64,000 nucleotides of DNA, taken from the NCBI GenBank assembly GCA_037043015.1, contig CM073323.1:12955758-13019757 (forward strand), given 5' to 3'. Numbering within the stretch: the first letter of the stretch is position 1; each line of letters opens with the position of its first letter. Under the pieces are notes generated by a model, which was not told where the DNA came from, made no database searches, and worked only from the letters and a program-made list of their open reading frames with translations. Position numbers and translations under genes: made by a program. This document shows positions 27,265 through 56,000 of the stretch, one piece after another. Source of the stretch: Bryum argenteum. Taxonomy: Eukaryota; Streptophyta; Bryopsida; Bryales; Bryaceae.

Positions 27265-27289
27265 ATTTTTTGTTTGGTTTTCTGAACTT

Positions 27290-27620: not shown

Positions 27621-27765
27621 CTGGCTAACTTGGGGAATTCTAGCTAACTTGGGGAATTCGGGGTCTTCTTTGAGAGATGTTGCCCAATGAAACTGTCATG
27701 TGAAATCTATTTACTGGGGCTATGCATGTAGATACTTAGTATCAAGTGATTAATTCTGTTCATTG

Positions 27766-31179: not shown

Positions 31180-31236
31180 CATTGTAAGTTGAGTTTTATG
31201 TGCTGTTTCTGATGGATGTTGTTTGCGGGAATGCAG

Positions 31237-31554
31237 AACCGATTAAAAGTTGATGCAGTTTCAAAGGAGGACGAATCTGATGCCGACAGCGACTTATCGG
31301 CTTTGAGAGATCATGTCTTGTCCATAGTAGAGTCCCGTCGATTGGTAGTACCAATGTCCTCGGTTCCCGATACTCCGCCTCCTGCACCCCCTGTCCGTTA
31401 CACTTCAAGTGTATACGTTGATCGGGTTGCGCGAGCAAAAAACAAACGCAACTATTACATTCAAGCGAAAATTCGTCGTAATGAAGCCAAGACATTAGCT
31501 AGGCTTGCACCACGTCGTTCACCAAGACTTGCATCTAAGCTAAAATCGAAATAG
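31237..31554 (+). CDS. Small basic protein with RRSPRL tail, copy in element 2
   Basis: The exon begins after a TGCAG acceptor at 31236 and ends in TAG at 31552-31554. The peptide has an acidic start (KEDESDADSDLSALRDH), a Pro-rich middle (PPPAPPVRYTSSVYVD) and a very basic end (APRRSPRLASKLKSK). The same exon, with the same borders and tail, is found on the minus strand at 46298-46615, so it is a real conserved gene of the transposon. A start codon at 31216 would lie in the supposed intron; the true first exon is unknown and may have been displaced by the 27766-31179 insertion. The ParB-MTase start codon follows 138 bases after the stop, directly behind an AG acceptor. The basic tail suggests nucleic-acid binding, by inference. 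Confidence 0.6.
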   Translation, partial: NRLKVDAVSKEDESDADSDLSALRDHVLSIVESRRLVVPMSSVPDTPPPAPPVRYTSSVYVDRVARAKNKRNYYIQAKIRRNEAKTLARLAPRRSPRLASKLKSK

Positions 31555-31692
31555 GTTTTTGATAAGATTTTCAGATACGATTATGTTTTTCTTCCTTGTA
31601 AACAGCTTTATATTTTACTTTATATTTCATTGGTATTTTGATTTATTCTTATTCTTTAGTGCATTGTTGCAATTGGTTTATTGATTTGTTAG

Positions 31693-34600: not shown

Positions 34601-37022
34601 ACAATTGTTGTTTATAATCTCCCTACTCACGTTTTGTATTTGTAACTCTATTAGCTACTATCTAATTATTGACTTCTATATCAGATTGGAAAAGACCGGA
34701 AGTACCCGTGTTCGGCGATGGAGTTTTATCCCAAGCATCCAGGGATTGATCTCATTTTTGCAGACGCTCCCGAGAACTTGCCTGTACCGGGTGCGTCTCC
34801 AACAGAAATTCCATCCTGGAACCGGCGTGACAAAAACTACTTTGAGAACGTTTTTATCTTTGCCGCATATCACTTGACGGACGTTGGAGCCATTCTTTTG
34901 ATGCATCCCAAATGTCGTAGAATTGAGCGTACTCTCGATTCTGAGTCCGCAACATATAGTTTTCGTCTTGTTCGTGACTGGTGGGGATATAATCCCCTCC
35001 CTATGGCATCTACCGTACCTAAACCGAAAGAGGTAAGTGGCAGATTCTAGTCTCCATTTTCACAATTCGTGATTATTGCCTTCTATGCTTCTATGTTAAT
35101 GTATTTATACTTCTGTATTGCAGACTCACTGCTTCCATATCAAAGTTTATGTTCGTAAAGAGTTTCTTTCGAAGTTCCAAACTCGGCAAGTGGCACACGC
35201 ATACGGTGGTGTGGCAATCGTACCTGATGAGGAAGACCACCTCTCTAATTTTGGAGACAAAGAGACATTGCGTTACCGTCCGGATGGTACGCCATGGCGA
35301 GGCTCACGAGAGAAGGACCCCTCCTTCATTCAGTGTTTCGTGGATTGTCTCACGGACGACGGGGGTATCGTTTTCGACTCGAACGCAAGTACAGGTAATG
35401 TTACCGTAAACACTACTTTAGACTTCCTTTGTAGATTTTGCGTATCTAAGGTGGGCTTTGGAATTTATAGGTGCATCTGTAATTGCTTGCGCGCGCTCAA
35501 ACCGACACCTGATCGCTATGGAACCTGACGAAGAAATCTTTGATGGTGTTCTTGCGGATTACAAGAATGGTCCTCCCCGCAATGAAGAAAGTGGAGAATC
35601 AGCCCCACCAGCAGATTATGACTCTGACGAACCGCAAGTGAAGAAGCCCCGCAAGTTTATTGGTGCGTAATTTCATCATCCATTGTCTTTCTCATTTCTG
35701 AATTCCACACTTACAAGTATATTGTACTGACTTTCTTTGTACTTTTAGCATCGCAAGTCTGAAGGAGCAATTGTCTGGCAACGCTCACCTCTACAACAGC
35801 CCTGCAGCAACATTCATTCTACCTTCCTATGCAGAGCGTCTTGCACAAGAGTTCGTTCGAACTCCATCTCCCATTCAGCGTTCGGGAAGTTTTTTGAAAT
35901 ATCAAGGTTAATTGCCTACATCTAGAAAAGGGCATAGGTTATTTCTCCAAGAGATAGGCTACATCCTACACTGATGAAAATTTGTAGGTTGAAAACTTGT
36001 AATATTCCGAAGTTACTAGCCAATTGCCTTCAAATCAAAATTTTAGTAGGTTGTAATCCTTCAAAAATTTAATGTAATAGGTTTTGGATTCAATATTACT
36101 TCATTAAATAATCAATATCCTTGGCAATAATTGAACCTGGTAGCCCATCATCCACTTGATGGCCAAAGATTCTCAACTCCAAGATACCATCTCCTACAAC
36201 CAAAGAAAATTGAATGTTGGAGGGGTTTCCCATCTACACAAGCATTCACAAGTAGTTGTGCTAACACATTGACATCTGGCAATGTTAGAAAGAGTTAAGA
36301 GGTTAGGAAATTTTAACTTTAAAGAAGGACTCCAACTTATGGGTGTCCATAAATCTTCAAAGGTACGATCACCCCATTCACAACTACCTTGCACTTTGAA
36401 AGCAAGAAATTCTTGCTTGCAAGCTAGGGCATTCACTAAAGGAGGATAAATTGTGCTTCCAATGCACTTCTCTTCTCCATATTGCTTTAAAAGCAAATCT
36501 AACTGCATCCCACCATAAGAGTTTAAGCCAAGAAGGAAGCTAGCGGAGAAAACAAAGATAGGGCAACGCTATTGCAAGTTATCAGGCGCAGGCTATTAGG
36601 GTTTCTAGTTACTAGGGTTTCATTGATATTGATGTCCGTGGCACACCCAATAGCCCCGGATATGAGCCTAGGGATCCATATTTGGACAAGTTGATTTCCT
36701 ACATTGGAGAATTATGATTGGCTAAAATCCTCTCTTTTGTAATATCTATAGGCAAAAAATCCTACATTTTTTTTATTGGAGAAGCTAAAATCCAATGCTT
36801 CTAAAATTCCTTAGGTTTTACGTCCTACACTTTCAAAATTTTGTAGGCTATTTCACAATTTTCATAGGCTGCATTTATATTAGCCTTAGGTTCTTCCCGG
36901 ACGCTGCTCCCATTCTGTCTGACAGTACACGTCCACGTTATAGCAATCGTGTGCTCAAGTTTATAGAGTTTGAGGCTGATGAGTGTGACCAGCACTTTAA
37001 TGGTGCCACACCTTCATCGTAG
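31693..37022 (+). pseudogene. ParB-MTase-like gene, copy 2 (in element 2)
   Basis: Exons: 31693-32510, 32597-32793, 32879-33076, 33166-33384, 33470-33705, 33809-34588, 34685-35032, 35124-35394, 35471-35662, and a last exon from about 35758 to 37022. Exon 1 has the ParB-like YVYEGSHRLTAW (His-Arg kept, Asn changed to Ser). Exon 6 has a poly-Asp stretch. Exon 7 has FADAPENLPVPG at the motif IV position. Exons 8-9 join as IVFDSNASTG|ASVIACARSN, the motif I position. Defects: a one-base gain in exon 2 near 32620; a one-base loss near 33876 in exon 6 (after ...SIPVDLE); a CGCAAG acceptor in place of CGCAGG before exon 10; and a 1031 bp hAT insertion in exon 10 at 35876. It cannot make the full protein. 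Confidence 0.85.
35868..36914 (-). mobile_element. hAT-type insertion (35876-36906) with 8 bp target duplication
   Basis: The left end is CAGCGTTCGGGAAG; the complement of the right end is CAGCGTCCGGGAAG, a 14 bp inverted repeat with one mismatch. The 8 bp target duplication CTCCCATT lies at 35868-35875 and 36907-36914. On the minus strand at 36508-36194 a 104-codon frame contains KFPNLLTLSNIARCQCVSTT, which fits the C-terminal dimerisation region of hAT transposases. So the 1031 bp element is a deleted relative of an autonomous hAT. It disrupts exon 10 of the ParB-MTase copy in element 2. Confidence 0.88.
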
Positions 37023-37728
37023 TGTGTGATTTGTTTTCTGATAGGTACTGGACATGGTAGCGCCATACACTTGTAGTTGCCATCATCTATTACTTATATA
37101 CTATCTATATGTATTTTTCAATATTTATGATTTTATATATTTACTTATCATGATTATCGTTTATAGCTTGAACTACATTAAGTGCTTCAAGTATTACTCC
37201 AAGTATGTGAATTCAATGTATTCGAAGCCATGCTCGTTTTTAATGGTGACGTCGGCCCTAATTTTGATGTAACTCGTTCAACTCGAATTTCAATGCATCG
37301 GTGTATCTATTCTCGCGATCCCATAACCGGAAGCGAAATGTGTAAAAAACTTCACATCTTAATCTGGGGAAAATCGGCTTCGAATTTTATAAAGTGAGAA
37401 GCTATGACGTCAGCCCTAATTTTTTGACGACAGTGTAAAAACTTTCGACTAATTATTATTTGAGAAGTTCTAGATTGGAGCCAACATTACTTTCGCGCGT
37501 AAATGGGATCTAACTTCACGGATTTGGGGCACTCTTTTCTATCGAACTATTCCCAAATATATTTCATCACCCTAAACTCAATGGTCATAGGGTCACTTTC
37601 TCAAGTACAATGAGTGGTAATAGGGTCTTCATCTTTCATGAAAAAAAAAATAAAAAAAAATAAAAAAAATAAAAAAATAAAAAATAAAAAAAAAAAATCT
37701 GCCATCCGCTCACACCCGTGCATTCCCC
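37023..37728 (+). other. 3' tail and right terminus of element 2
   Basis: About 700 bases follow the stop codon. They contain GTGACGTCGGCCCTAAT (about 37246-37262) and TGACGTCAGCCCTAAT (37405-37420), a TCAATGGTCATAGGGTC block, an A-rich tract (37639-37697), one CCGCTCACACC heptamer end and the terminal CATTCCCC. The equivalent tail of element 1 (38603-39234) has the same order, so this is the family's conserved right end. No gene. Confidence 0.8.
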
Positions 37729-37743
37729 ACTTGTGTTTTGCAG

Positions 37744-38602
37744 GCTCACTGCTTCCATATTAAAGTTTATGTTCATAAAGACTTTTTTTCGAAGTTCCAA
37801 ACTCGGCAAGTGGCACACGCATACGCGGGCGTGGCAATCATACCGGATGAGGAAGGGCACCTCTCAAACTTTGCAGACAAAGACACATTGCGTACTCGTC
37901 CAGACGGTACGCCATGGCGAGGCTCACGAGAGAAGGACCCCTCCTTCATTCAATGTTTCGTAGACTGTCTCACGGACTACGGGGGTATAGTCTTCGACTG
38001 GAGCGCAAGTACAGGTAACGTATCCGTAAACGCAACTTTAGAAATTGTTTATACATTTCGCATTTCTAACGTGCGATTCTGATTTTTTAGGTGCATATGT
38101 GATTGCTTGCGCGCACTCAAACCGACACCTCATCGCCATAGAACTTGACAAAGAAATCTTTGATGGTGTACTAGCGGATTACAAGAATGGTCCTCCCGGT
38201 GAGGAAGAAAGTGGAGAATCGGCCCTACCCGCAGATTATGACTCTGACGAACCGCCCGTGAAGAAGCTACGGAAGTTTATTGGTGCGTAGTTGCTTCGTC
38301 TATTTTTTTCTCAATTCCGTCTTCTGCTCTTAAAAATATATTGTACTGATTTTCTTTGTACTTTTAGTATCGCAGGTCTGAAAGAGCGATTGACTCGCAA
38401 CGCTCATCTTTACAATAGCCCTCCATCGACGTTCACCCTACCTTCTTACGCTGAGCGTCTTGCTCAAGAGTTTGTTCAAGCTCCATCTCCCATCTTGTCT
38501 GACACTACACGTCCACGTTATAGTAATAGTGTGCTTAAGTATATAGACTTCGAGGCTGATGAGTGTGACCTGCACTTCAATGGTACTACACCTTCACGGT
38601 AG
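37744..38602 (+). pseudogene. ParB-MTase-like gene, copy 1, exons 8-10
   Basis: This continues the gene of 18324-21649 after element 2. Exons: 37744-38014, 38091-38282 and 38376-38602. They encode AHCFHIKVYVHKDFFSKF, then WRGSREKDPSFIQCF, then IVFDWSASTG|AYVIACAHSNRHLIAIE, then an acidic linker and a C-terminal block ending with LPSYAERLAQEF and LHFNGTTPSR. D-W-S-A-S-T-G...R-H-L-I-A-I-E matches the layout of methyltransferase motif I (D-x-F-x-G-x-G followed by an acidic SAM-ribose contact). These three exons are open and correctly spliced in silico, so decay of this copy lies mostly upstream. Confidence 0.85.
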
Positions 38603-38961: not shown

Positions 38962-39234
38962 TTCTATGCGACAATAAAATACGGGGCCAGGATCCCCTCC
39001 TTAATGATTTATAAAATAGGGCCATGATCACATTCACATGGTAATAGGATCTAAATCCACGGATTTGGGGTACTCAATTGGACTAAAGTAATCCTTAAAA
39101 ATTTTAAAAACGCTTAAATCAATGGTCATAGGGTCCCTAACTTTCACACAATTTTTTTTTTAAATGTTCACATCTACCCATGCCATCTTTGACCTCACCG
39201 CTCACCGCTCACCGCTCACACCACTACATTCCCC

Positions 39235-40985
39235 TAATAATAAAAATAAAAATAAAAATAAAAATTCCAAACCCATTGTCATAAAATACCAAACAAACCA
39301 CACCATCACATACTCAAATAAAACCAACACAAAACTAGAATACCAAATTGCCGGGCCCCAAAGCCTAATACAAAACAACAAAGAAACATATCTCCCCACA
39401 AACAATAAACAATTACATCACACAAAAAAACCCATGATGCCAGAATCCAAACCCATTAAATCAACACTAAACGCTAAACACATAGGCAATCGAGCTCGGC
39501 CTCCTGGCCTCGCCCATAAAAACATAACAAAAATAATAATAATAAAAATCAAACTTATACCCACGCCGAAAACACAAAAAACCCAACTTACGAGGCCTTA
39601 GAAGCTAGCCAAAATAGACACAAAAAATCCAAAATATCCCATCACAAGACAACATTTACACCACAAAAAATACCCCAAGATACCCAAAACAAAACAAACA
39701 AACCCTACACACAACTTTGCAAAAAATCGAGCTCGGCCTCCCGGCCTCGCTTATGCACTAAATTTACTAAACCCATGCAAAATACACAAACACAACATTA
39801 CATCCACAATATCACATATAAAACTTTCTGGGCCTCAAAAACTAAATAAACCTTACAAAAAACCAAAACACCCCGTTATAGATCAACAAATACGCCACTC
39901 AAAAAAACTAAAACCATTAAAACCCACTCAATACACTATACACACAAACAAACAAACCCGGCCTCCCGGGCTCACCTATAAACCAATAAACCAAAAAGCA
40001 ATCTATAAAACACATACACAAAACACCACACTCATAAAAGTTTCAAAAACATCAACCCACACTACTAGAACCTACCACTACACATACAAAGACAAATATC
40101 ACTTACCAAAATGCGGAGATGTCGAAACCAACCCAGGGCCCATGCCGAATGTACTCAAAACTCACCCATCCGTCCATAAACGAAGATGCAAAAACTACTT
40201 CATACCATGCACAATTCGACTACACCCTGAATACCAGCATCTATCAGCACAATTTGCGCCATGTCTCATACAAACCCACCCAAAACACCTAGAAGCACAA
40301 ATTAAATATCCGTATCTCACAAACTACGTCCGGGAAAACTCTCATCATCCAGCACCACGCATATTATACGCTCTTATCACAACAATAAACCCATCACCAG
40401 AAACATGCAATCGCATCCTCGAACATCCCACTAATCCAAATTGGACCACTATATTACTTAACGAAATGGCCACACTTCAAAACCCGCCAGAAAGACATCT
40501 CAACAACACACACCCATACACACAATTCAAAAACGCGAATTCTAACCTAATAAACCCCCCCAACACCATACACAAACAATTATATGAATTCATTCAACAA
40601 AACAACACACCACCCAATCAAGAACAATTGAAAAACGAATTCCCATTTTTACCCGATAACCTACTTGCAGAAGCCCTAAAAATTAATGAACCCCTTCCCG
40701 AATATTCTCATCCACCTCCACCACCAAAGATGTCCCCCCCACAAAATACAACACCAATCACCACAAACCATAAAACGCATACAGTCACTTGGAATGCCTC
40801 ATCACTCAACACCGCCCTCCCAAATCTACATGAACTAATCATCAACACCCCAACAAGTCCGGCAATCATTGCAATACAAGAAACTAAACTAACTGCCACA
40901 AAATCTACAAAATATCTTCAAAATTTATTCCCTAATCACAAAATGATCTTCAACAATACACACGCACGAACAAGATGCATGCAAC
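39235..40985 (+). mobile_element. Fragment of a non-LTR (LINE-type) retrotransposon with an APE endonuclease start
   Basis: The plus strand is very poor in G and rich in A and C, unlike both neighbours. One frame is open from 39602 into element C (to 41011); a single TAG at 39599 separates it from an upstream frame in the same phase. The upstream part is low-complexity and basic, with RPPGL repeated three times (about 39500, 39735, 39961). A 2A-type motif ends at 40141 and is followed directly by ATG at 40142. Then come about 200 residues of unknown function, and near 40780 the start of an APE-type endonuclease: HTVTWNASSLN with the Asn, and IIAIQETKL with the catalytic Glu. The frame is cut by element C at 40986 before the reverse transcriptase. 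Its left side meets the end of element 1. Confidence 0.75.
40109..40141 (+). other. 2A-type ribosome-skipping motif (KCGDVETNPGP)
   Basis: Eleven codons, AAA TGC GGA GAT GTC GAA ACC then AAC CCA GGG CCC, give K-C-G-D-V-E-T-N-P-G-P, a full match to the D-x-E-x-N-P-G-P consensus at which the ribosome skips the Gly-Pro bond. The next codon is ATG. 2A-like sequences are established in viruses and also in several APE-type non-LTR retrotransposons (trypanosome L1Tc and some animal LINE clades), where they separate an N-terminal product from the endonuclease-RT protein. It is in the same frame as the endonuclease domain downstream, as that role requires. Confidence 0.85.
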
Positions 40986-41055
40986 GGGGAAACCACCGGT
41001 GTGAGCGTTGAGCGGTGAGCGGTGAGCGGTGAGCGGTAAAGTTTGAGCGGTAAGA

Positions 41056-41890: not shown

Positions 41891-42123
41891 CTACGATGCT
41901 GATGGTGAACGACCATTAAAGTGTTGGTCACACTGATCAGCCTCATCGTCTATAAACGCAAGCACTCTCGAGCTAAAGCGTCGACGTCTACTACTGTCTG
42001 ATAAAACGGGAGAAGGGGCAGCGACAAATTCCTGAGCTATCCGTTCCGCATAAGATGGTAGGGTGAAGGTTTGCGGAGGACTGCTGTAGAGACTACCGTC
42101 GCCAATCAAGCGGCGATTGGAAC
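41891..42123 (-). pseudogene. Exon 10 remnant of the ParB-MTase gene in element C
   Basis: Preceded by acceptor GATCGCAG and open to a TGA, encoding a block with FTLPSYAERIAQEF and QHFNGRSPSAS. It matches the final exon of copies 1 and 2. In element C the previous exon already ends in TAA (42233-42235), so this exon would be 3' untranslated unless an alternative donor is used. The peptide is well conserved for sequence after a stop, so the stop may be recent. Confidence 0.5.
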
Positions 42124-42232
42124 CTGCGATCCTAAAAGTACAGAAAAAGTCAATACCAATAAATTATTAGCAAGTGAATGTGACAATAGAAGGGGTAAAA
42201 GTAAGAGGTAAGTACGCACAAAATGTTGGGCG

Positions 42233-45200
42233 TTACTTCTTCTGAAGCGGTTCAGAAGTGTCACTGTCGTAGTCATAAACCGGAACCGAGTCGCCGCTGT
42301 CTTCTTCAAAAGCGGTACCATCCACGTATGCCGATAAAAGTCCGTCAAATATCTCTTCATCAGCTTCAACAGCAATGAGATGACGGTTCGATCGCGCGCA
42401 GGCAATCACGGAAGCACCTACATACCAGCAACCAACATCAAAACTACAATATTGCAGAAGTTGAATGAGAGTTGGTATTAGCAACAACTAACCAGTACTA
42501 GGGCTCCAGTCAAAGACGATTCCCCGCTCGTCTGTGAGAGAATCAATAAAACACTGGATGAAGGAGGGATCCTTCTCTCGCGAGCCACGCCACGGAGTAC
42601 CATCTTCCTTCTTACGAATGGACTCATTGCTCGCAAAATTGAAAACATGGTCCTCCTCGTCCGGAAGAATGGGTACACCCGCGTACTCTTTCGCAACCTG
42701 TCTAATGGAGAATCTCGTGGCAAAAGACTTCCGAACAAATACCTTGATGTGGAAGTTGTGAGTCTGCAGAATTGAATAGATGAGAGAGATTTAAAGAAAC
42801 GTTGTAAATAATCATGAATGATGATTTGAATGCAAAATGAAGACCATACCGTTTTCACGTGGGGGTTCGTCGATGCCATTGGCATGGGATTATATCCCCA
42901 CCAATCTCGCACCATTCGGAATTCAAAAGCCTTAGACTCCGCATCCAAAGCTTTCTCAACTCGACGGTCCTTGGGATGCATAACCAGTATCGCACCCTCG
43001 TCTGTCAAGTTGTAGAAAGCAAAAAAGAACACACTCTCGAAGTAGCTTTTCTCTCGCTTGTTCCATGAAGGGATATCGACTGGCGACACGTCCGGCACGG
43101 GTAAGTTCTCGGGAACGTCTGCGTAGATGAGATCAATGCCGGGATGCGGGTGTTTGGTGCCCATCTCCTTACATGGGTACTTCCTGTCCTTGCCAATCTT
43201 TCGAAATCACAAAAAGTTAGGCATGTTATAAACGATATGTTCCAAACAGAAATTCAGAACTAAAAGAAAGTAATAAGAGATTTACGGTATAATACCTTTC
43301 TGATGTGGTTAATGATGTCCATGACTTGCGTGTCCCAATCTTTTGTTTCATGAGCTGCCTTTTGAATGGAAGCCCCAATATCCCCTTTTTCCAAGTACAT
43401 CGGGAGAGATATAGTAATCTCAGAAGACAAGCACTCTCCAACATGCTTCGGTTCAAGAAATGGCAGTGAAGCGAACTTCTTTCCGGAGTTGTGGTCAGCA
43501 GTGAAAGATTGCGGAGGGGACCCCGAATTCGTAAGAGCGCCTACAGAAATCTGAGTCAATGGTCGACCGCGTCTACCTGCATTGTTGGTCGCTCCATCTG
43601 AAGCCTGAGTCAAATCAGCTTCTTCTGGACCTGCAACGTCTTGATGGAGCGGACCGATTTCATCGGGTTCTTGGTCGAGATCAACGACAGGCTCCGCAGC
43701 GGCGTTGCGACGCTTTCTGTTTGCTCGGGTTCTAGGTTGTGGAACCGGTGAAGGTGGTTCGGAGGATGAGACAGGTGCGCTTGGTAAAATGGAGACGTCT
43801 TCGTCGTCATCGTCATCGATCTCCATAGCTGCATTGCCTGTTGTGTTGGAAGTGAGGTTGCGAAGCAGATGTCTCTCTTCCTTGTGCACAAAGTTATCGT
43901 TGCACTCTAGGAACCAACCACCGGTCAGCAACTGTGAGTTGGAAAAGCGACTCTGTTGGGCTTTGGAGAAGATGCTCGATGGATCATTTGAGACGGTTAC
44001 GTCCTCGAGCTCAGCTGGAATGGACCAGGAAGCCAAGGCTCCTTTGCCAACAAGCTCCTGTTTCAAGTACCTATAGTGAAGTAAACATATTACAATGACA
44101 ACATTCAGTAGAGCGTATTGGTAATCAGCGAAATGTGTAGGAAATTAAAAAGTTAAGTAAATACATACCGAAATAAGAGCCGTTTAGTAGTAACCTTGCC
44201 ACCACTAATCTTCTGAATATCGGAACCCTTGATAAACTTGGGGCTGGCATTTTGAGCGAGGTAGTTCCCGAATGCCTTTTCCCATAAAAGCAATCTCCAT
44301 TTCTCAACATATGCGGATGGCTTTAGTACCGCATCCGACCACTGAATGGAAATGCTGCCATCCTCCAGAAGTTGTTGTATTCCACTTTCGAGAGATTGTT
44401 GTAACTGCAATGAAGTAGAACCCGTTAGGAATAAAAGATAGAGGATGACGACAGTATTGATTGGACAGAAGTTCAGTATAACGTACCTGAGCCCAGAGAG
44501 AAGCGCGATGCAAAAATGCAAGCAATGTTTTATCCTTCATAGGGCGTTCTACTGGGAAGTGGACAGATTTACGAACATCATCTGGCGCATTCCACCATTG
44601 GAGCCACTTTCCCTTAAAATCAAAGTGGACATTGGTGGTGGCTACCATATGCAGACGTTCGATTGTCATGTCGGGCTTCAGGTTTTGGCTGTAGTGAGAA
44701 TAGATCTGCATTAAAAACAAATTCAAGTAGATAATTTCAGTATTGATGAATAAGAGTATTGAATCTCATAAGGAATGAAGTAGCTTGAATTATTTACCTC
44801 TTTCGGGAATACTTTTCCAAGTTGGTTATTGGCCACAGCAACCATCTTGTCGAACTGCTTGCCACGAATGGATTTGATTTCCGTTTTAATGGCGTTATCC
44901 ATGGCACTCCAAACTCCTGGCCCTGTTTGCTTTTCTTTAGGGGTAGTGGCATAATAGGTAGCTTCTGCATTATCCGATGCTTTTGCTAACCTCCTCTACA
45001 TGGCACGGAAGTAGTAGTTAGAATTTGTAATGAAATGAGTATAGGATATCAGTGTTTAGTACGTATTCAGAAGTCTTACCGCATACAAGAATTTGACGAA
45101 GACGTCCAGAGTGACAGGATACCATGTTTCCTTTTTCGCTTTAGCGTTTTTGCAAATTTGGTAATCCTCCGGGGTAATCAGATCCTTGAAATCTTCAAGT

Positions 45201-46168
45201 TTCAACTTACCGAATTTCCTCATGCGTTGAAGCTTTGCACATAAACTGTCTTCGACATGGTCATGTTCGGTAGACCTAATCATCAAAAACAGATATGAGA
45301 ATACGTCGAGGTTACAAAGTTATGAGAAAAAATTTACTGAAAGAATGGTTTCAAGTACTAACCAATTGATGTCATTCATGGCGTCAAGAAGAAGATTGCT
45401 TTGACCGCGAGCATCGAGAACGATGCAATCAACTGAGATGTACCATGATGGATCCATCAGGTGGTACTTCTCAATGTGACGCATCCACGCCGTCACACGG
45501 TGATTGCCTTCGTATACGTAGAAATATTTACCACTGAGATCATGAAGATCAGGATCCGACATCAAAGTCTTCTCGAAATCTTCATTGGCAGCTCTCCATA
45601 GCGGATTCTTCCACACACCGTCTTCTGCATCAACCTCTTTTTCTCTTCCTTTTCTATCGAATGGAGATACATACATTACCCGATCTCCATCTCGGTAACC
45701 CTTGTTGAACTCGAGTTCTTGCTCAGAGATAGGTCGCACTTTTGGATAACACAGCAGACGGCATAGTGGAATGAGCAGACGGGACTTCTTAACAGGTTTG
45801 AAATGGAACCTGTTAATGATTGCAATGGAATCACTCTTGTGAATCATTCGCATCTCGTTCGCACTCCATCCGGGGTCTTTGTTTTGGAGATGAGGGGGCA
45901 TGTGAACTATGCCGACGTTGATACTCCCTGGCAAAGGAGATTCGTTGTCGTCTGAGAGCGACTCATGTTCATCGAGATCTTGCAAAGTCCTTGGAGGAGA
46001 ATCGGGCGCAATAGGAGTATCGCGCGGCACTCTAAGAGAGATGTCTACGACGTCTTCTAGAGGGACGACTGTGTTGTCATCTTCAGCGGGAGCAGGAGTT
46101 GTTTGGATGTTTTCAGAAGGTGTGGTATCTTCTTCGTCTACAGGAGATTGCATCTCGGATATATTCAT
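42233..46168 (-). CDS. ParB-like / beta-order methyltransferase-like protein, intact copy (1077 aa)
   Basis: Exons in order of transcription: 46168-45363, 45275-45080, 44995-44798, 44705-44487, 44404-44169, 44070-43296, 43197-42850, 42763-42493, 42417-42233. All introns are GT-AG, and the lengths sum to 3234 nt (1077 codons plus stop) with consistent phases. The N-terminal acidic region (1-85) is followed by a ParB-like domain (about 90-265) with YVYEGNHRVTAW (EGNHR at 220-224), the nucleotide-binding box of ParB/Srx folds. Residues 269-552 are a conserved helical-looking region with WLQWWN and no family I know. 552-810 is a linker with DDDDDED and basic RANRKRRN. 811-1020 resembles an amino-methyltransferase in beta order: motif IV position IYADVPENLPVPD (D837), then motif I position IVFDWSPSTG (D1011) and RHLIAVE. 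The DPP(Y/F/W) box is D-V-P-E, so activity is doubtful. Start chosen at the ATG right after an AG acceptor, shared by all copies. Confidence 0.8.
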
Positions 46169-46297: not shown

Positions 46298-46615
46298 CTA
46301 TTTGGATTTTAACTTCGCTGCAAGACGTGGTGAACGACGTGGTGTAATTCTAGCTAACGCCCTGGATTCGTTTCGACGAGCTTTCACTCGAGTGTAGTAA
46401 TTGCGCATGTAATCTGCTCTTGCAACTCCATCAACGTATACACTTGGAGTGTTACGGACAGGAGGGGCAGGAGGCAGAGTTTCGGGAACCGATGTCAGGG
46501 CTACTACTAAACGGCGAGACTCTACTACAGCCATAACATGAGCTTTCATAGCCGATAAGTCGCTGTCGGCATCAGATTCTTCCTCCATAGATACAACTTT
46601 AAGTGTCAATGGATC
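46298..46615 (-). CDS. Small basic protein with RRSPRL tail, copy in element C
   Basis: The exon starts after a TTGCAG acceptor (46616 side) with DPLTLKVVSMEEESDADSDL and ends in a basic TPRRSPRLAAKLKSK before the stop. It is about 60% like the copy at 31237-31554 by eye; the acidic start, the Pro-rich APPVRNTPSVYVD and the basic tail are all kept. Its first exon is not identified; a start at 46636 would lie inside the probable intron. The stop lies 130 bases before the ParB-MTase ATG, so the two could come from one transcript by alternative splicing, or be separate genes. Function unknown; nuclear or nucleic-acid binding is a guess from charge. Confidence 0.6.
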   Translation of the reverse strand, partial: DPLTLKVVSMEEESDADSDLSAMKAHVMAVVESRRLVVALTSVPETLPPAPPVRNTPSVYVDGVARADYMRNYYTRVKARRNESRALARITPRRSPRLAAKLKSK

Positions 46616-46636
46616 CTGCAATAACACGTAGAACAC

Positions 46637-47015
46637 TCAACATTAGTATGTACAGAAATTCACATACAATGAACATCACTAATAATATATTACAATATAT
46701 CAAACCACCTTGCCCCAGTAGTAAACAAGGTACACAAAAAACATATCGATATTCCACATAAATTAAAGCTATAAGGCCTTTGAACGCTCGTGATCGCATC
46801 ACATCATGACTCTGAATTCTACTTATCCTTGACATATAATAAAGGCGACAAAATGATGAACATTAGAAATAGGTCCTTGACCAACTGAATGTCTATCAAA
46901 AAGGTAATATTGCAGAGTCTCATCAAATACAAACACCGAGCTTCACAAATGGTGTCCTCTCCGTAGCACTCATCCGAGGTCCCTGATCAGTGATGCCGAC
47001 ACCCTCGAATATCCA
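46637..47015. other. Upstream flank of element C genes and junction with the satellite
   Basis: AT-rich until about 46900, then a short GC-rich run-in (GATGCCGACACCCTCGAA at about 46993) that is a degraded first satellite unit. No transposon terminus was found here, so the left part of element C is missing, or the satellite arose inside it. Confidence 0.5.
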
Positions 47016-50000
47016 GTGCAAAGTTTACAGCACGAACCTCCATGCCGACACAATCCTCGGGCAACCCCGGTGCAAGCAAGAATCAAAACGAGCAGGGACA
47101 CCATCACGATGACCATCACTTATCAAACTGGCCCCAAGGGTTGCAACCTTGCGGTACCGCAGGGTAGCATCGAGGAGCAAAAAGGAGACCATCACGAAGA
47201 CCATCAAGCATGTAACTGCCCCCCCAGGGGGTGCAGCCTTGCGGTACCGCAGGGTACCATCGAGGAGCCAAATCGACAACCACGACATGACGAAGAACAT
47301 CAGCACACCCTTCCCGAGGCACTCGTGGGAGCCCTGTCTGGGATGCCGACACCCTCCCAAGGCAAGCAAGAATCAGGACAAGCAAGGAGACCATCACGAT
47401 GACCATCACTTATCAAACTGGCCCCAGGGGTTGCAGCCTTGCGGTACCGCAGGGTAGCATCGAGGAGCAAAAAGGAGACCATCTTGAATACCATCAAGCA
47501 TATAACTGCCCCCCCAGGGGGTGCAGCCTTGCGGTACCGCAGGGTACCATCGAGGAGCCAAATCGACAACCACGACATGACGAAGAACATCAGCACACCC
47601 TTCACGAGGCACTCGTGGGAGCCCTGTCTGGGATGCCGACACCCTCCCGGTGCAAGCAAAAATCAAGACGAGCAGGGAGACCATCACGAAGACCATCGAG
47701 CATGTATCTGCCCCCCAAGGGGGTGCAGCCTTGCGGTACCGCAGGGTACCATCGAGGAGCCAAATCGACAACCACGACATGACGAAGAACATCAAAGACA
47801 CCCTTCCCGAGGCACTCGTGGGAGCCCCATGCAGGATGCCGACACCCTCCCGGTGCAAGCAAGAATCAAGACGAGCGGGGAGACCATCACGAAGACCATC
47901 AAGCATGTAAATCGCCCCCGGTGCGCGGCCTTCTTGATACCGCAGGTACCATCGAGGAGCCAAATCGACAACCACGACATGACGAAGAACATCAAAGACA
48001 CCCTTCCCGAGGCACTCGTGGGAGCCCATGTCTGCATGCCGACACCCTCCCGGTGCAAGCAAGAATCAAGACGAGCAGGGAGACCATCACGAAGACCATC
48101 AAGCATGTAACTGCCCCCCTAGGGGGTGCAGCCTTGCGGTACCGCAGGGTACCATCGAGGAGCCAAATTGACAACCACGACATGACGAAGAACATCAAGA
48201 CACCCTTCCCGAGGCACTCGTGGGAGCCCATGTCAGGATGCCGACACCCTCCCGGTGCAAGCAAGAATCAAGACGAGCGGGGACCATCACGAAGACCATC
48301 AAGCATGTAATCGCCCCCCGGGTGCGGCCTTGCTTGATCCGCAGGTAGTACCATCGAGAGCCAAATCGACAACCACGACATGACGAAGAACATCAGCACA
48401 TCCTTCCCGAGGCACTCGTGGGAGCCCTGTCTGGGATGCCGACACCCTCCCGGTGCAAGCAAGAATCAAGACGAGCAGGGAGACCATCACGAAGACCATC
48501 AAGCATGTAACTGCCCCCCCAGGGGGTGCAGCCTTGCGGTACCGCAGGGTACCATCGAGGAGCCAAATCGACAACCACGACATGACAAAGAACATCAGCA
48601 CACCCTTCCCGAGGCACTCGTGGGAGCCCCATGCAGGATGCCGACACCCTCCCGGTGCAAGCAAGAATCAAGACGAGCAGGGAGACCATCACGATGACCA
48701 TCACTTATCAAACTGGCCCCAGGGGTTGCAGCCTTGCGGTACCGCAGGGTAGCATCGAGGAGCAAAAAGGAGACCATCTTGAAGACCATCAAGCATATAA
48801 CTGCCCCCCCAGGGGGTGCAGCCTTGCGGTACCGCAGGTTACCATCGAGGAGCCAAATCGACAACCACGACATTACGAAGAACATCAGCACACCCTTCCC
48901 GAGGCACTCGTGGGAGCCCTGTCTGGGATGCCGACACCCTCCAGGTGCAAGCAAGAATCAAGACGTGCAGGGAGACCATCACGATGACCATCACTTATCA
49001 AACTGGCCCCAGGGGTTGCAGCCTTGCGGTACCGCAGGGTAGCATCGAGGAGCAAAAAGGAGACCATCTTGAATACCATCAAGCATATAACTGCCCCCCC
49101 AGGGGGTGCAGCCTTGCGGTACCGCAGGGTACCATCGAGGAGCCAAATCGACAACCACGACATTACGAAGAACATCAGCACACCCTTCCCGAGGCACTCG
49201 TGGGAGCCCTGTCTGGGATGCCGACACCCTCCCGGTGCAAGCAAGAATCAAGACGAGCAGGGAGACCATCACGATGACCATCACTTATCAAACTGGCCCC
49301 AGGGATTGCAGCCTTGCGGTACCGCAGGGTAGCATCGAGGAGCAAAAAGGAGACCATCTTGAATACCATCAAGCATATAACTGCCCCCCCAGGGGGTGCA
49401 GCCTTGCGGTACCGCAGGGTACCATCGAGGAGCCAAATCGACAACCACGACATGACGAAGAACATCAGCACACCCTTCACGAGGCACTCGTGGGAGCCCT
49501 GTCTGGGATGCCGACACCCTCCCGGTGCAAGCAAGAATCAAGACGAGCAGGGAGACCATCACGAAGACCATCAAGCATGTAAGTGCCCCCCCAGGGGGTG
49601 CAGCCTTGCGGTACCGCAGGGTACCATCGAGGAGCCAAATCGACAACCACGACATGACGAAGAACATCAGCACATCCTTCCCGAGGCACTCGTGGGAGCC
49701 CTGTCTGGGATGCCGACACGCTCCCGGTGCAAGCAAGAATCAAGACGAGCAGGGAGACCATCACGAAGACCATCCAAAGATGTAATCGCCCCGAGGGTGC
49801 GGCCTTCTTGGTACCGCAGGTACCATCGAGGAGCCAAATCGACAACCACGACATGACGAAGAACATCAAGACACCCTTCCCGAGGCACTCGTGGGAGCCC
49901 TGTGCAGGATGCCGACACCCTCCCGGTGCAAGCAAGAATCAAGACGAGCAGGGAGACCATCACGATGACCATCAAGCATGTAACTGCCCCCCCAGGGGGT

Positions 50001-53000
50001 GCAGCCTTGCGGTACCGCAGGGTACCATCGAGGAGCCAAATCGACAACCACGACATGACGAAGAACATCAAGACATCCTTCCCGAGGCACTCGTGGGAGC
50101 CTGTGCAGGATGCCGACACCCTCCCGGTGCAAGCAAGAATCAAGACGAGCAGGGAGACCATCACGAAGACCATCAGCATGTAAATCCCCCCCGGGGTGCG
50201 GCCTTCTTGATGCCGCAGGTACCATCGAGGAGCCAAATCGACAACCACGACATGACAAAGAACATCAGCACACCCTTCCCGAGGCACTCGTGGGAGCCCT
50301 GTCTGGGATGCCGACACCCTCCCGGTGCAAGCAAGAATCAAGACGAGCAGGGAGACCATCACGATGACCATCACTTATCAAACTGGCCCCAGGGGTTGCA
50401 GCCTTGCGGTACCGCAGGGTAGCATCGAGGAGCAAAAAGGAGACCATCTTGAAGACCATCAAGCATATAACTGCCCCCCCAGGGGGTGCAGCCTTGCGGT
50501 ACCGCAGGTTACCATCGAGGAGCCAAATCGACAACCACGACATTACGAAGAACATCAGCACACCCTTCCCGAGGCACTCGTGGGAGCCCTGTCTGGGATG
50601 CCGACACCCTCCAGGTGCAAGCAAGAATCAAGACGTGCAGGGAGACCATCACGATGACCATCACTTATCAAACTGGCCCCAGGGGTTGCGGCCTTGCGGT
50701 ACAGCGAGGTAGCATCGAGGAGCAAAAAGGAGACCATCTTGAATACCATCAAGCATATAACGCCTTCCTGCCCCGGGGTGCAGCCTTGCGGTACCGCAGG
50801 GTACCATCGAGGAGCCAAATCGACAACCACGACATTACGAAGAACATCAGCACACCCTTCCCGAGGCACTCGTGGGAGCCCTGTCTGGGATGCCGACACC
50901 CTCCCGTGCAAGCAAGAATCAAGACGAGCAGGGAGACCATCACGATGACCATCACTTATCAAATCGCCCTGCGATTGCGGCCTTGCGGTACCGCAGCAGG
51001 TAGCATCGAGGAGCAAAAAGGAGACCATCTTGAATACCATCAAGCATATAACCGCCTGCCCCGGTGCGGCCTTCTGGTACCGCGCAGGTACCATCGAGGA
51101 GCCAAATCGACAACCACGACATGACGAAGAACATCAGCACACCCTTCACGAGGCACTCGTGGGAGCCCTGTCTGGGATGCCGACACCCTCCCGTGCAAGC
51201 GGGAATCAAGACGAGCGGGAGACCATCACGAAGACCATCGAGCATGTATCTGCCCCCCAAGGGGGTGCAGCCTTGCGGTACCGCAGGGTACCATCGAGGA
51301 GCCAAATCGACAACCACGACATGACGAAGAACATCAGCACACCCTTCCCGAGGCACTCGTGGGAGCCCTGTCTGGGATGCCGACACCCTCCCGGTGCAAG
51401 CAAGAATCAAGACGAGCAGGGAGACCATCACGAAGACCATCAAGCATGTAAGTGCCCCCCCAGGGGGTGCAGCCTTGCGGTACCGCAGGGTACCATCGAG
51501 GAGCCAAATCGACAACCACGACATGACGAAGAACATCAGCACATCCTTCCCGAGGCACTCGTGGGAGCCCCCGTGCAGGATGCCGACACGCTCCCGGTGC
51601 AAGCAAGAATCAAGACGAGCGGGAGACCATCACGAAGACCATCCAAGATGTAAATCGCCCCCGTGGTGCGGCCTTCTTGCGGTACCGCAGGGTACCATCG
51701 AGGAGCCAAATCGACAACCACGACATGACGAAGAACATCAGCACACCCTTCCCGAGGCACTCGTGGGAGCCCTGTCTGGGATGCCGACACCCTCCCGGTG
51801 CAAGCAAGAATCAAGACGAGCAGGGAGACCATCACGATGACCATCACTTATCAAACTGGCCCCAGGGGTTGCAGCCTTGCGGTACCGCAGGGTAGCATCG
51901 AGGAGCAAAAAGGAGACCATCTTGAAGACCATCAAGCATATAACTGCCCCCCCAGGGGGTGCAGCCTTGCGGTACCGCAGGGTACCATCGAGGAGCCAAA
52001 TTGACAACCACGACATGACGAAGAACATCAGCACACCCTTCCCGAGGCACTCGTGGGAGCCCTGTCTGAGATGCCGACACCCTCCAGGTGCAAGCAAGAA
52101 TCAAGACGTGCAGGGAGACCATCACGAAGACCATCAAGCATGTAATCGCCCTGTGGGTGCGCAGCCTTCTTGCGGTACCGCAGGGTACCATCGAGGAGCC
52201 AAATCGACAACCACGACATGACGAAGAACATCAGCACACCCTTCCCGAGGCACTCGTGGGAGCCCTGTCTGGGATGCCGACACGCTCCCGGTGCAAGCAA
52301 GAATCAAGACGAGCAGGGAGACCATCACGAAGACCATCAAGCATGTAACTTGCCCCCGGGTGCGGCCTTTGGGATACCGCGCAGGTACCATCGAGGAGCC
52401 AAATCGACAACCACGACATGACGAAGAACATCAGCACATCCTTCCCGAGGCACTCGTGGGAGCCCTGTCTGGGATGCCGACACCCTCCCGGTGCAAGCAA
52501 GAATCAAGACGAGCAGGGAGACCATCACGAAGACCATCAAGCATGTAACTGCCCCCCCAGGGGGTGCAGCCTTGCGGTACCGCAGGGTACCATCGAGGAG
52601 CCAAATCGACAACCACGACATGACAAAGAACATCAGCACACCCTTCCCGAGGCACTCGTGGGAGCCCTGTCTGGGATGCCGACACCCTCCCGGTGCAAGC
52701 AAGAATCAAGACGAGCAGGGAGACCATCACGATGACCATCACTTATCAAACTGGCCCCAGGGGTTGCAGCCTTGCGGTACCGCAGGGTAGCATCGAGGAG
52801 CAAAAAGGAGACCATCTTGAAGACCATCAAGCATATAACTGCCCCCCCAGGGGGTGCAGCCTTGCGGTACCGCAGGTTACCATCGAGGAGCCAAATCGAC
52901 AACCACGACATTACGAAGAACATCAGCACACCCTTCCCGAGGCACTCGTGGGAGCCCCTGTGCAGGATGCCGACACCCTCCAGTGCAAGCAAGAATCAAG

Positions 53001-56000
53001 ACGTGCGGGAGACCATCACGAACACCATCAAGCATGTAATCACGCCCCGGGGGTGCCTTGCGGTACCGCAGGGTACCATCGAGGAGCCAAATCGACAACC
53101 ACGACATGACGAAGAACATCAGCACACCCTTCCCGAGGCACTCGTGGGAGCCCTGTGCAGGATGCCGACACCCTCCCGGTGCAAGCAAGAATCAAGACGA
53201 GCAGGGAGACCATCACGAAGACCATCAAGCATGTAACTGCCCCCCCAGGGGGTGCAGCCTTGCGGTACCGCAGGGTACCATCGAGGAGCCAAATCGACAA
53301 CCACGACATGACGAAGAACATCAGCACATCCTTCCCGAGGCACTCGTGGGAGCCCCATGCAGGATGCCGACACCCTCCCGGTGCAAGCAAGAATCAAGAC
53401 GAGCGGGGAGACCATCACGAAGACCATCAAGCATGTAAATCGCCCTGTGGGTGCGGCCTTTGCGATACCGCAGGTACCATCGAGGAGCCAAATCGACAAC
53501 CACGACATGACAAAGAACATCAGCACACCCTTCCCGAGGCACTCGTGGGAGCCCCTGCAGGATGCCGACACCCTCCCGGTGCAAGCAAGAATCAAGACGA
53601 GCGGGAGACCATCACGATGACCATCACTTATCAAATCGGCCCTGGGGTTGCGACCTTGCGGTACCGCAGGTAGCATCGAGGAGCAAAAAGGAGACCATCT
53701 TGAAGACCATCAAGCATATAACTGCCCCCCCAGGGGGTGCAGCCTTGCGGTACCGCAGGTTACCATCGAGGAGCCAAATCGACAACCACGACATTACGAA
53801 GAACATCAGCACACCCTTCCCGAGGCACTCGTGGGAGCCCTGTCTGGGATGCCGACACCCTCCAGGTGCAAGCAAGAATCAAGACGTGCAGGGAGACCAT
53901 CACGATGACCATCACTTATCAAACTGGCCCCAGGGGTTGCAGCCTTGCGGTACCGCAGGGTAGCATCGAGGAGCAAAAAGGAGACCATCTTGAATACCAT
54001 CAAGCATATAACTGCCCCCCCAGGGGGTGCAGCCTTGCGGTACCGCAGGGTACCATCGAGGAGCCAAATCGACAACCACGACATTACGAAGAACATCAGC
54101 ACACCCTTCCCGAGGCACTCGTGGGAGCCCTGTCTGGGATGCCGACACCCTCCCGGTGCAAGCAAGAATCAAGACGAGCAGGGAGACCATCACGATGACC
54201 ATCACTTATCAAACTGGCCCCAGGGATTGCAGCCTTGCGGTACCGCAGGGTAGCATCGAGGAGCAAAAAGGAGACCATCTTGAATACCATCAAGCATATA
54301 ACTGCCCCCCCAGGGGGTGCAGCCTTGCGGTACCGCAGGGTACCATCGAGGAGCCAAATCGACAACCACGACATGACGAAGAACATCAGCACACCCTTCA
54401 CGAGGCACTCGTGGGAGCCCTGTCTGGGATGCCGACACCCTCCCGGTGCAAGCAGGAATCAAGACGAGCAGGGAGACCATCACGAAGACCATCGAGCATG
54501 TATCTGCCCCCCAAGGGGGTGCGGCCTTGCGGCGGCACGCGGTGTACCATCGAGGAGCCAAATCGACAACCACGACATGACGAAGAACATCAAGACACCC
54601 CCTTCCCGAGGCACTCGTGGGAGCCCTGCAGGATGCCGCCGACCCTCCCGGTGCAAGCAAGAATCAAGACGAGCAGGGAGACCATCACGAAGACCATCAA
54701 GCATGTAACTGCCCCCGGTGCGTGCCTTTGCGGCACCGCAGGTACCATCGAGAGCCAAATCGACAACCACGACATGACGAAGAACATCAAACATCCTTCC
54801 CGAGGCACTCGTGGGAGCCCCCGCCTGCTGCATGCCGACACCCTCCCGGTGCAAGCAAGAATCAAGACGAGCGGGAGACCATCACGAAGACCATCCAAAG
54901 ATAAATCGCCCCTGGGTGCGGCCTTTTGCGGTACCGCAGGTACCATCGAGGAGCCAAATCGACAACCACGACATGACGAAGAACATCAGCACACCCTTCC
55001 CGAGGCACTCGTGGGAGCCTGTGCAGGATGCCGACACCCTCCCGTGCAAAGCAAGAATCAAGACGAGCGGGGAGACCATCACGATGACCATCACTTATCA
55101 AACTCGCCCCTGGGGTTGCGGCCTTGCGGTGCACCGGGGGTAGCATCGAGGAGCAAAAAGGAGACCATCTTGAAGACCATCAAGCATATAAATCCCCCCC
55201 GGGGGTGCGGCCTTTTGGGTACCGCAGGTACCATCGAGGAGCCAAATTGACAACCACGACACGACGAAGAACATCAAGACACCCTTCCCGAGGCACTCGT
55301 GGGAGCCCTGTCTGAGATGCCGACACCCTCCAGGTGCAAGCAAGAATCAAGACGTGCAGGGAGACCATCACGAAGACCATCAAGCATGTAACTGCCCCCC
55401 CAGGGGGTGCAGCCTTGCGGTACCGCAGGGTACCATCGAGGAGCCAAATCGACAACCACGACATTACGAAGAACATCAAAGACACCCTTCCCGAGGCACT
55501 CGTGGGAGCCCCTGTGCAGGATGCCGACACCCTCCCGGTGCAAGCAAGAATCAAGACGAGCAGGGAGACCATCACGATGACCATCACTTATCAAACTGGC
55601 CCCAGGGATTGCAGCCTTGCGGTACCGCAGGGTAGCATCGAGGAGCAAAAAGGAGACCATCTTGAATACCATCAAGCATATAACTGCCCCCCCAGGGGGT
55701 GCAGCCTTGCGGTACCGCAGGGTACCATCGAGGAGCCAAATCGACAACCACGACATGACGAAGAACATCAGCACACCCTTCACGAGGCACTCGTGGGAGC
55801 CCTGTCTGGGATGCCGACACCCTCCCGGTGCAAGCAGGAATCAAGACGAGCAGGGAGACCATCACGAAGACCATCGAGCATGTATCTGCCCCCCAAGGGG
55901 GTGCAGCCTTGCGGTACCGCAGGGTACCATCGAGGAGCCAAATCGACAACCACGACATGACGAAGAACATCAGCACACCCTTCCCGAGGCACTCGTGGGA

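Follow-up and report, generated by a model that had tools for sequence, protein, structure and literature searches.

A predicted gene on the minus strand of a 64,000-nucleotide stretch of Bryum argenteum DNA (contig CM073323.1, hereafter the window) was read in the first-pass annotation as a transposon gene joining a ParB-like domain to a beta-order methyltransferase-like fold. This locus raises the question of whether the gene belongs to a transposon, which of the two proposed domains it encodes and what such a protein might do for the element that carries it.

Structure of gene C

The gene, here called gene C, was first modelled with nine exons and 1077 codons. The minus-strand frame with its GT/AG-bounded introns stood, but the end point did not: the earlier model took as its stop an in-frame TAA that lies within exon 9 just downstream of a splice donor (GTAACG), and missed a tenth exon (42131-41891, minus strand) downstream of exon 9. 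Since sequence matching exon 10 is present in two other copies in the window (B1 and B2) and three Ceratodon proteins continue into this exon, the length was taken as 1156 aa, giving a predicted gene of ten exons and 1156 codons with the following features.

45363..46168, minus strand: exon 1, variable N-terminal tail and putative ParB/Srx-like core with EGNHR (GT/AG splice sites; 82 profile relatives)
45080..45275, minus strand: exon 2 (exon model)
44798..44995, minus strand: exon 3 (exon model)
44487..44705, minus strand: exon 4 (exon model)
44169..44404, minus strand: exon 5 (exon model)
43296..44070, minus strand: exon 6, low-complexity linker (exon model)
42850..43197, minus strand: exon 7, methyltransferase-like motif IV region with DVPE (exon model, profile match)
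42493..42763, minus strand: exon 8, methyltransferase-like, with REKDPSF and FDWSPSTG (exon model, profile and phage tblastn matches)
42237..42417, minus strand: exon 9, remainder of the motif I region, ASVIACARSNRHLIAVE (exon model, hhalign)
41891..42131, minus strand: exon 10, absent from the earlier model (continuous in Ceratodon proteins)
46301..46636, minus strand: ORF1, a short, basic-tailed ORF located upstream of gene C

The frame is not a product of chance, because diverged copies in the window keep it and its exons have many genomic matches (at least 138 scored for exon 1 of 1226 candidates, and at least 150 for exon 7 of 961). As noted earlier, EGNHR stands in the N-terminal part (residues 220-224) and is followed by a DVPE box and then FDWSPSTG, the DVPE box lying about 620 residues C-terminal of EGNHR (previously estimated at about 600); ASVIACARSNRHLIAVE comes after FDWSPSTG and is spliced across exons 8-9. 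Relatives of the protein in Ceratodon are annotated as 'hypothetical protein'. ORF1 was found in eight of the nine copies whose upstream sequence was examined and is absent from the truncated copy A.

The transposon and its copies

The proposed residence of the gene in a transposon was substantiated by terminal inverted repeats (TIRs), 9-bp target site duplications (TSDs), empty sites and a linked transposase. Elements exist in hundreds of copies in the 259-Mb genome, and three complete copies measured 13.8-17.1 kb. The imperfect TIRs read GG(GG)A..GTGTGAG.G, and each end bears GAGCGGT heptads. Perfect 9-bp TSDs flank 12 of the 14 copies paired by exact ends, with one further TSD of 8 bp and one copy having none, whereas none of 182 swapped end pairs matched at 8 or more bases. 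The TSD of element R4 (TAGTGGAAT) matches at 9 of 9 bases and that of R2, which has an empty-site relative, at 8 of 9. Genome-wide, the exact 22-base right end is present 164 times; among eight copies examined it was identical in six and one base off in two, and the flanks were all different. In complete elements, a transposase-like gene occupies one arm and ORF1 plus the gene the other, in divergent orientation with repeats between them. For element C, which carries gene C, the far end was looked for and not found, so that the element is not demonstrated to be complete, and no second GCATGCAAC copy was present in the window or in the 20 kb to its right. The window also holds an older, interrupted element (copies A and B2), whose left end was looked for and not found, with another element nested in it.

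40986..41040, plus strand: terminus of element C on the 3' side of gene C, GGGGAAACCACCGGTGTGAGCGTTGAGCGG(TGAGCGG)n
40977..40985, plus strand: GCATGCAAC, candidate target-site copy of element C
18324..21733, plus strand: copy A, covering exons 1-7 of the interrupted element, with one stop codon in exon 1 and part of exon 6 aligned
37738..38600, plus strand: copy B2, carrying exons 8-10 of that interrupted element
39190..39234, plus strand: right-hand end of the interrupted A/B2 element
21735..37728, plus strand: element B, complete, 15,994 bp, nested in intron 7 of A/B2
21726..21734, plus strand: left TSD of element B, ACTTGTGTT
37729..37737, plus strand: right TSD of element B, ACTTGTGTT
22216..23634, minus strand: broken C-terminal half (CxC..CxH segment) of the element B transposase gene
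31213..31551, plus strand: ORF1 of element B
31693..37022, plus strand: gene B1, in which each of the ten exons is matched (exons 2 and 6 over part of their length; exon 10 interrupted by an insert at about 35875-36906)
30310..30318, plus strand: GCCGGCGCC, empty target in an intact repeat copy equivalent to the insertion site of the complete element R2

ACTTGTGTT occurs only twice on the plus strand of the window, and joining the flanks of element B restores intron 7 of A/B2. Other ORFs of the window, at 2564-3742 and 8027-11739, were scanned against Pfam.

The opposite arm carries a divergently transcribed, putatively Mutator-like transposase, recognized by eye from the motifs LMFDHV, MADSAQA..CYFH, NLAESIH and CxC..CxH; the broken element B copy is 62-67% identical to the R2 transposase and has four stops. 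Because the transposase had no Pfam match at E 1, assignment to the Mutator-like elements (MULEs) rests on these motifs and on TSD length, the superfamily having TSDs of 8-11 bp, typically 9. Among the listed loci, 44 of 88 scored transposases have a scored gene locus in divergent orientation within 20 kb and five have one otherwise arranged (random expectation for divergent pairing: mean 1.0, maximum 6 in 1000), while half have no listed scored divergent partner within that distance. In this context, the predicted gene forms the second gene of a TIR transposon that is MULE-like and present in high copy number. Taken by itself, purifying selection would be compatible with a host gene family that transposons flank by chance. 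However, this explanation and that of an integrated virus are hardly credible and were rejected: the gene lies between element ends that bear TSDs, the genome has 222 or more distinct scored gene loci, and no relative was confirmed in viral contigs.

Two putative domains and constraint on the gene

For the C-terminal domain, the suggested relationship to beta-order N6/N4 methyltransferases was upheld by several searches. PF01555 (N6_N4_Mtase) matched with an E of 2.8e-4 (query residues 54-231, profile positions 33-217 of 221), although the 21.3 bits of this Pfam profile search fall below the curated cutoff of 26.7; the alignment runs across most of the domain with motif IV before motif I, the beta order. 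Among the PHROGs, phrog_18293 matched at 3e-6, and hhalign aligned a PF01555 protein at 2.9e-6 over 47 columns. Moreover, tblastn at an E limit of 10 returned 310 phage records with a best E of 1e-3, the best match covering 92%, and 13 of the 15 rows listed carry the label methylase or methyltransferase. Much of the methyltransferase score is contributed by the motif I segment.

Catalytic motif IV is of the (D/N/S)xP(Y/F/W) type. The aromatic fourth residue is found in none of the 14 relatives with a readable motif, a count from which a spurious reading and P0106, a true methylase, are omitted, and in none of three window copies (A, B1 and C); the 14 comprise twelve D[AVT]P[ESD], one YAPE and one DALE. 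P0106 has DLPY, which shows that the second position is variable. Motif I is altered to DWSxxTG and lacks FxGxG, with its second glycine and the acidic residue after RHLIA retained. We infer that the C-terminal domain has a beta-class N6/N4 DNA methyltransferase fold whose catalysis is apparently lost. The protein might instead be an active N6-adenine or N4-cytosine DNA methyltransferase marking the element's own DNA, in line with its clear relation to beta-class enzymes, with the two retained residues and with the precedent of retrotransposons carrying cytosine methyltransferases in the accessible text of PMC5890265. The absence of an aromatic fourth residue from motif IV in all 14 relatives, against DLPY in P0106, and the lack of FxGxG make such activity improbable.

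The ParB domain, in contrast, was not sustained: the motif order appears to fit and the statistics do not. The order considered is strand-PxVRP, GNHRxTA, strand and an N..N helix, its equivalence to GERR/ENLQR being judged by eye, and G221, N222, H223, R224 and A227 together with M264, D266 and N268 are nearly invariant (59-60 sequences). Of the 62 members, 20 matched phrog_1033 weakly, with a best value of 0.0027, and the family consensus reached 0.32. No ParB match or support came from Pfam with the consensus, from NCBIfam with four exon-1 relatives or from a PDB sequence search; hhalign against a Spo0J-type profile gave a probability of 0.04%, and with a ParB HMM the family scored no higher than shuffled or reversed sequences. 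In phages, tblastn matched the methyltransferase fold and gave nothing for the ParB-like region. As to the capture of a prokaryotic pair, which the first-pass annotation put forward as one option, pattern matches in viral contigs and prokaryotic genomes yielded no confirmed relative for either domain. A canonical ParB was therefore rejected, one weak PHROG signal being all that these searches gave.

Diverged window copies have the frame intact in most exons at dN/dS 0.13-0.17. In seven close copies (R4, L029-L034), dN is 0-0.022 and dS 0.11-0.37 in exons 7-9, with R2 exon 8 (dN 0.09) as the exception to low dN. By these substitution rates, the methyltransferase-like domain is among the most constrained parts of the predicted gene, exons 2-5 being constrained about equally in the diverged comparisons. 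Capture of gene fragments is frequent in MULEs according to the available portion of PMC6446971, and the gene could likewise be passive Pack-MULE-type cargo with no function for the element. However, its retention under such constraint in diverged lineages and its genome-wide linkage to the transposase make this very unlikely. Because the gene is strongly preserved despite the apparent loss of the catalytic motif, the element probably needs the protein, perhaps for escape from silencing or for handling its own DNA.

Possible roles and known systems

Noncoding repeats of the element offer candidate binding sites.

47000..62300, plus strand: tandem array of 202/88-bp units beside ORF1 of element C

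This array holds 65 perfect palindromes TGCGGTACCGCA, a frequency equalled or exceeded there by eight other 12-mers that overlap in part; R2 and R3 have shorter arrays with the same palindrome. GCGGNNCCGC occurs in five of six elements, being absent from R4, and elsewhere once in 264 kb read. The 19-mer GATGACGTCAGCCCTAATT was considered and dismissed as the protein's own site: it contains TGACGTCA, which we take to be a bZIP-type palindrome, and a host factor is therefore equally likely.

We favour, with a probability of about 0.5, a non-catalytic, methyltransferase-derived DNA-binding accessory protein that would keep the MULE-like element expressed against silencing. The degenerate methyltransferase domain would act as a scaffold that binds DNA or SAM, specificity would come from the faster-evolving N-terminal half, and the protein would bind the TIR heptads GAGCGGT and/or the array palindrome GCGGTACCGC. 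Binding may thereby counter host silencing as VANC proteins, the anti-silencing factors of VANDAL MULEs, are described to do in the accessible parts of PMC5735166 and PMC10398659; the protein may in addition act on the ends when the element transposes.

Alternatively, the protein may be transposition machinery needed for movement, binding together with the transposase to the heptad termini, or nicking or clamping DNA through the ParB-like domain. This tentative reading draws on the presence of the gene beside the transposase in complete elements, on the similarity of its 3' half and the adjoining terminus even between copies with diverged 5' halves, and on ParB domains reported as nicking or NTP-regulated DNases in the available text of PMC5512222. 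Against it, the ParB fold found no support from hhalign or HMM. In addition, the MULEs known to us move with transposase alone.

Between lineages, the 5'/3' divergence of the gene changes over around exon 6. In an extended reading, a pair of prokaryote type, ParB plus DNA methyltransferase, would have been turned by the transposon into a means of recognizing itself: palindromic parS-like sites, amplified in the central array, would be where the ParB-like part loads, the dead methyltransferase part would read terminal heptads sharing the GCGGT half-site, and gene halves swapped between lineages would create new specificities, leaving each subfamily unsilenced. Taken jointly, these steps are doubtful.

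Returning to the favoured accessory protein, few transposon-borne anti-silencing tools are known, namely VANC, TET/JBP and captured DNMTs, and this is a high-copy plant DNA transposon with a degenerate N6/N4 methyltransferase partner gene under strong constraint. A VANC-type factor is characterised by binding a short motif arrayed across its own element and by bringing about loss of methylation; to our knowledge, VANC is not methyltransferase-derived. The locus thus raises the questions of whether a dead DNA methyltransferase can be a transposon's sequence reader and whether bryophyte MULE-like elements counter silencing in the VANDAL manner, and ends, TSDs and coding structure are now given for a family filed in Ceratodon as 'hypothetical protein'. 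As the first-pass annotation had supposed, no described transposon family with this gene appeared among the open-licence literature matches listed.

Like those plant MULEs that carry additional ORFs (mudrB, PMD and VANDAL), the element has 9-bp TSDs, TIRs, an opposite-strand second gene and a putative transposase of DDE-like type, in which C(2)H and SWIM-like CxC..CxH motifs were read by eye, but its transposase is missed by Pfam models; the additional ORFs described in the accessible part of PMC6446971 include no ParB-like/methyltransferase-like gene. With PF01555 and phage N4 group-beta enzymes the protein shares the IV-then-I order and alignment over most of the domain, whereas its motif IV and FxGxG motif I are both degenerate and its score lies under the Pfam cutoff. 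The pairing proposed for gene C resembles Bacillus cereus Bce_0392, described in the available part of PMC5512222 as a ParB domain fused to an adenine methylase with reported nicking activity; likened by that description, gene C differs in an unproved ParB, a degenerate methyltransferase motif and motifs about 620 residues apart. Fungal TET/JBP dioxygenase DNA transposons, as far as covered by the accessible text of PMC12730594, also carry a DNA-modification-type gene with a proposed silencing escape, but belong to another enzyme family, other hosts and other transposon lineages. As described in the accessible parts of PMC5735166 and PMC10398659, VANC is likewise an accessory gene of a plant MULE encoding a partly fast-evolving protein, and in VANDAL elements, too, the noncoding tandem repeats contain a recurrent short motif and vary from copy to copy; the analogy implies no sequence relation.

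The gene travels in a mobile element with a linked transposase-like gene

The gene under study, gene C, was modelled as ten exons with GT/AG introns encoding a predicted 1156 codons. The nine exons of the first-pass annotation were correct, but exon 10 had been overlooked; three Ceratodon purpureus proteins, 47-50% identical across 68% of the query, continue through it. Two further copies were found within the window.

Gene copies in the window
46168-41891, minus strand: gene C, exons 1-10 (predicted)
18.3-21.7 kb (exons 1-7, part A) and 37.7-38.6 kb (exons 8-10, part B2): one interrupted copy
31.7-37.0 kb: copy B1

Copies A and B1 are damaged today, and the dN/dS values (C-A 0.13, C-B1 0.17, A-B1 0.16), with dS of about 1 or above, indicate that the reading frame was kept by selection. 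An insert of about 1 kb at 35875-36906 interrupts exon 10 of B1.

That the gene resides in a transposon, as first proposed, was borne out by conserved termini, a nested insertion, 9-bp target-site duplications (TSDs) and a linked transposase-like gene. On its 3' side the gene is followed by sequence that closes with a conserved terminus of GAGCGGT heptads. Parts A and B2 form the two halves of a single element whose intron 7 is interrupted by element B (21735-37728; 15,994 bp). Element B has inverted termini and is flanked on both sides by ACTTGTGTT, which occurs nowhere else on that strand of the window; joining its flanks reconstitutes intron 7. A complete 17.1-kb relative, R2 (C3:5110966-5128065), lies between GCCGGCGCC and GCCGGCGTC, and an empty counterpart of the repeat it hit is present in the window at 30310-30318, within a GC-rich repeat (27765-31179) that represents the unfilled target and also has more than one match in R2. 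The 13.8-kb relative R4 (C3:29013504-29027331) has TAGTGGAAT at either side. For element C, which carries gene C, a single end was seen, and the second was absent from the 20 kb past the window.

An exact-end search of the genome that contains the window (258.8 Mb, 25 contigs; its relatives point to a moss-like plant) returned 164 right and 65 left ends, with none in reversed controls. Among the matches listed (first 100 of the 164 right ends), 14 pairs of a left and a right end, separated by under 30 kb, were chosen by eye; the 9-bp duplication was perfect in 12, reduced to 8 bp in one and lacking in one, and 0 of 182 swapped pairs matched at 8 or more of 9 bases. By position, with lists compared by eye, at least seven of the 12 perfect-TSD elements contain a scored gene match and at least four have matches to all three of transposase, exon 1 and exon 7. 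One of the 12 (G000:C4:13941980-13943869) spans 1.9 kb, bounded on each side by an exact end and a 9-bp TSD; too short for both genes, it is a non-autonomous derivative.

The other arm of R2, away from the gene, codes on the opposite strand for a protein containing LMFDHV, MADSAQA then CYFH, NLAESIH and a C-terminal CxC..CxH. We read these motifs as the D, D, C(2)H, E and SWIM-like hallmarks of a Mutator-like transposase. The C/D(2)H signature is described for these transposases (PMC3942029), as are 8-11 bp TSDs and SWIM for Mutator-like elements (PMC6446971). Because this protein matched nothing in Pfam at E 1, the superfamily label is kept at 'MULE-like', unproved. Each of the four fetched elements that has a left end (R2-R5) contains this arm, in some cases with stops, and the window includes a broken piece of it.

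22216-23634, minus strand: broken transposase piece, 62-67% identical to the R2 transposase

Genome-wide, 88 transposase matches were scored among 1658 candidates; at least 44 had a divergent scored gene locus within 20 kb and five had one in another arrangement, against a random expectation for divergent pairing of 1.0 on average and 6 at most, computed with guessed lengths for contigs C8 and C9. ORF1, a small ORF with a recurring EEESDADSDLS..VESRRLV, precedes the gene in eight of nine copies with upstream sequence, the exception being truncated copy A.

Contig C1 (44.1 Mb, 17% of the genome) holds 63 of 138 exon-1, 55 of 150 exon-7 and 28 of 88 transposase matches among those listed, and is possibly a low-recombination or sex chromosome. 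Two further regions of the window gave no Pfam match: a long ORF at 39602-41008, LINE endonuclease-like by eye and truncated by the end of element C, and 8027-11742, where large ORFs on the plus strand belong to a separate, unrecognised gene, perhaps part of a different transposon.

A constrained, degenerate methyltransferase and a ParB-like N-terminus

The proposed methyltransferase relationship of beta order was upheld by several searches. Exons 7-9 matched PF01555 at 2.8e-4 (under its cutoff) and phrog_3008 at 2.5e-5; phrog_18293 reached 3e-6 with a consensus drawn by eye as query, and hhalign to a PF01555 protein gave 2.9e-6 over 47 columns. Searching phages by tblastn with an E limit of 10 returned 310 records, the best at 1e-3, and of the 15 listed, 13 carry a methylase or methyltransferase label; the best PDB match was DpnA (E 0.17). 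The motif I segment supplies much of the score, and the PF01555 and phage alignments span motif IV, which comes ahead of motif I in the beta-class order.

Motif IV reads D[AVT]P[ESD] in 12 of 14 readable relatives (YAPE and DALE in the other two) and DVPE or DAPE in the window copies; an aromatic fourth residue, as in DLPY of the true methylase P0106, occurs in none of these. Most readable copies have DWS[AP][SN]TG as motif I, in place of DPFxGSG. Given these two altered motifs, catalysis has probably been lost. Even so, this domain ranks with the best preserved parts of the protein: against gene C, exons 7-9 of R4 and six other loci (L029-L034) gave dN 0-0.022 and dS 0.11-0.37, compared with dN 0.04-0.09 for the ParB-like core and up to 0.5 for the N-terminal tail. 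R2 exon 8 is an exception (dN 0.09 over 68 codons), and in diverged comparisons exons 2-5 are constrained about equally.

The N-terminal EGNHR family comprises 82 relatives at E ≤10, at least one of them from Ceratodon and only the weakest above 1e-19, with near-invariant G, N, H, R, A, M, D and N. For the ParB assignment of the first-pass annotation, the motif order agrees with ParB/Srx, but the statistics of profile comparisons do not bear it out. The ParB-like phrog_1033 matched 20 of 62 members (best 0.0027; family consensus 0.32), Pfam returned scattered families (best 0.0053) and no match for the consensus, hhalign against four Spo0J-type sequences gave 0.04%, and a ParB HMM gave the family scores that did not exceed those of its shuffled or reversed controls. 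The domain may thus be termed ParB-like by motif only.

Six loci plus R2, R4 and B1 were compared with gene C. In L030 and L034, exons 7-9 are 95-100% shared with it (dS 0.20-0.32), but exons 1-5 have diverged strongly (dS 1.4-1.85); B1 has the opposite pattern. In L030, L034 and B1 the change lies around exon 6, where, on the simplest reading, lineages would have exchanged gene halves.

Candidate binding sites and a putative anti-silencing role

A tandem array lies between both genes in R2 and R3 and adjoins ORF1 in element C; R4 and R5 have different repeats in this position.

47000-62300: tandem array, 15 kb, 202/88-bp units, with 65 perfect 12-bp palindromes TGCGGTACCGCA

The palindrome occurs eight times each in the R2 and R3 arrays and as a variant, GCGGTGCCGC, ten times in R5. 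Counts of GCGGNNCCGC were 66 in the C array, 8 in R2, 8 in R3, 11 in R5, 3 in element B and 0 in R4, with one occurrence elsewhere in the 264 kb read; GCGGT is common to it and the terminal heptads. Since eight other 12-mers, some overlapping the palindrome, equal or exceed its frequency in the C array, the case for a candidate site depends on recurrence between elements. A separate 19-base sequence, GATGACGTCAGCCCTAATT, which includes TGACGTCA, occurs five times with at most two mismatches in 3' flanks of gene copies (expected 0.01).

37245, 37403, 38784 and 38944, plus strand; 41401, minus strand: GATGACGTCAGCCCTAATT sites

We propose that the protein would bind repeats of its own element and would counter its silencing, by analogy with VANC, the anti-silencing proteins of VANDAL MULEs, which bind motifs within tandem repeats of these elements and strip methylation (PMC5735166, PMC10398659). 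This whole chain, ending in anti-silencing, would be the likeliest role, at a probability of about one half; its main rival is that the protein acts in transposition itself. Among the best-ranked matches listed from the open-licence PMC literature, no transposon with such a gene was found. Transposons with an epigenetic-type accessory gene are a known kind, to which, as far as the literature was searched, this protein is a new addition.
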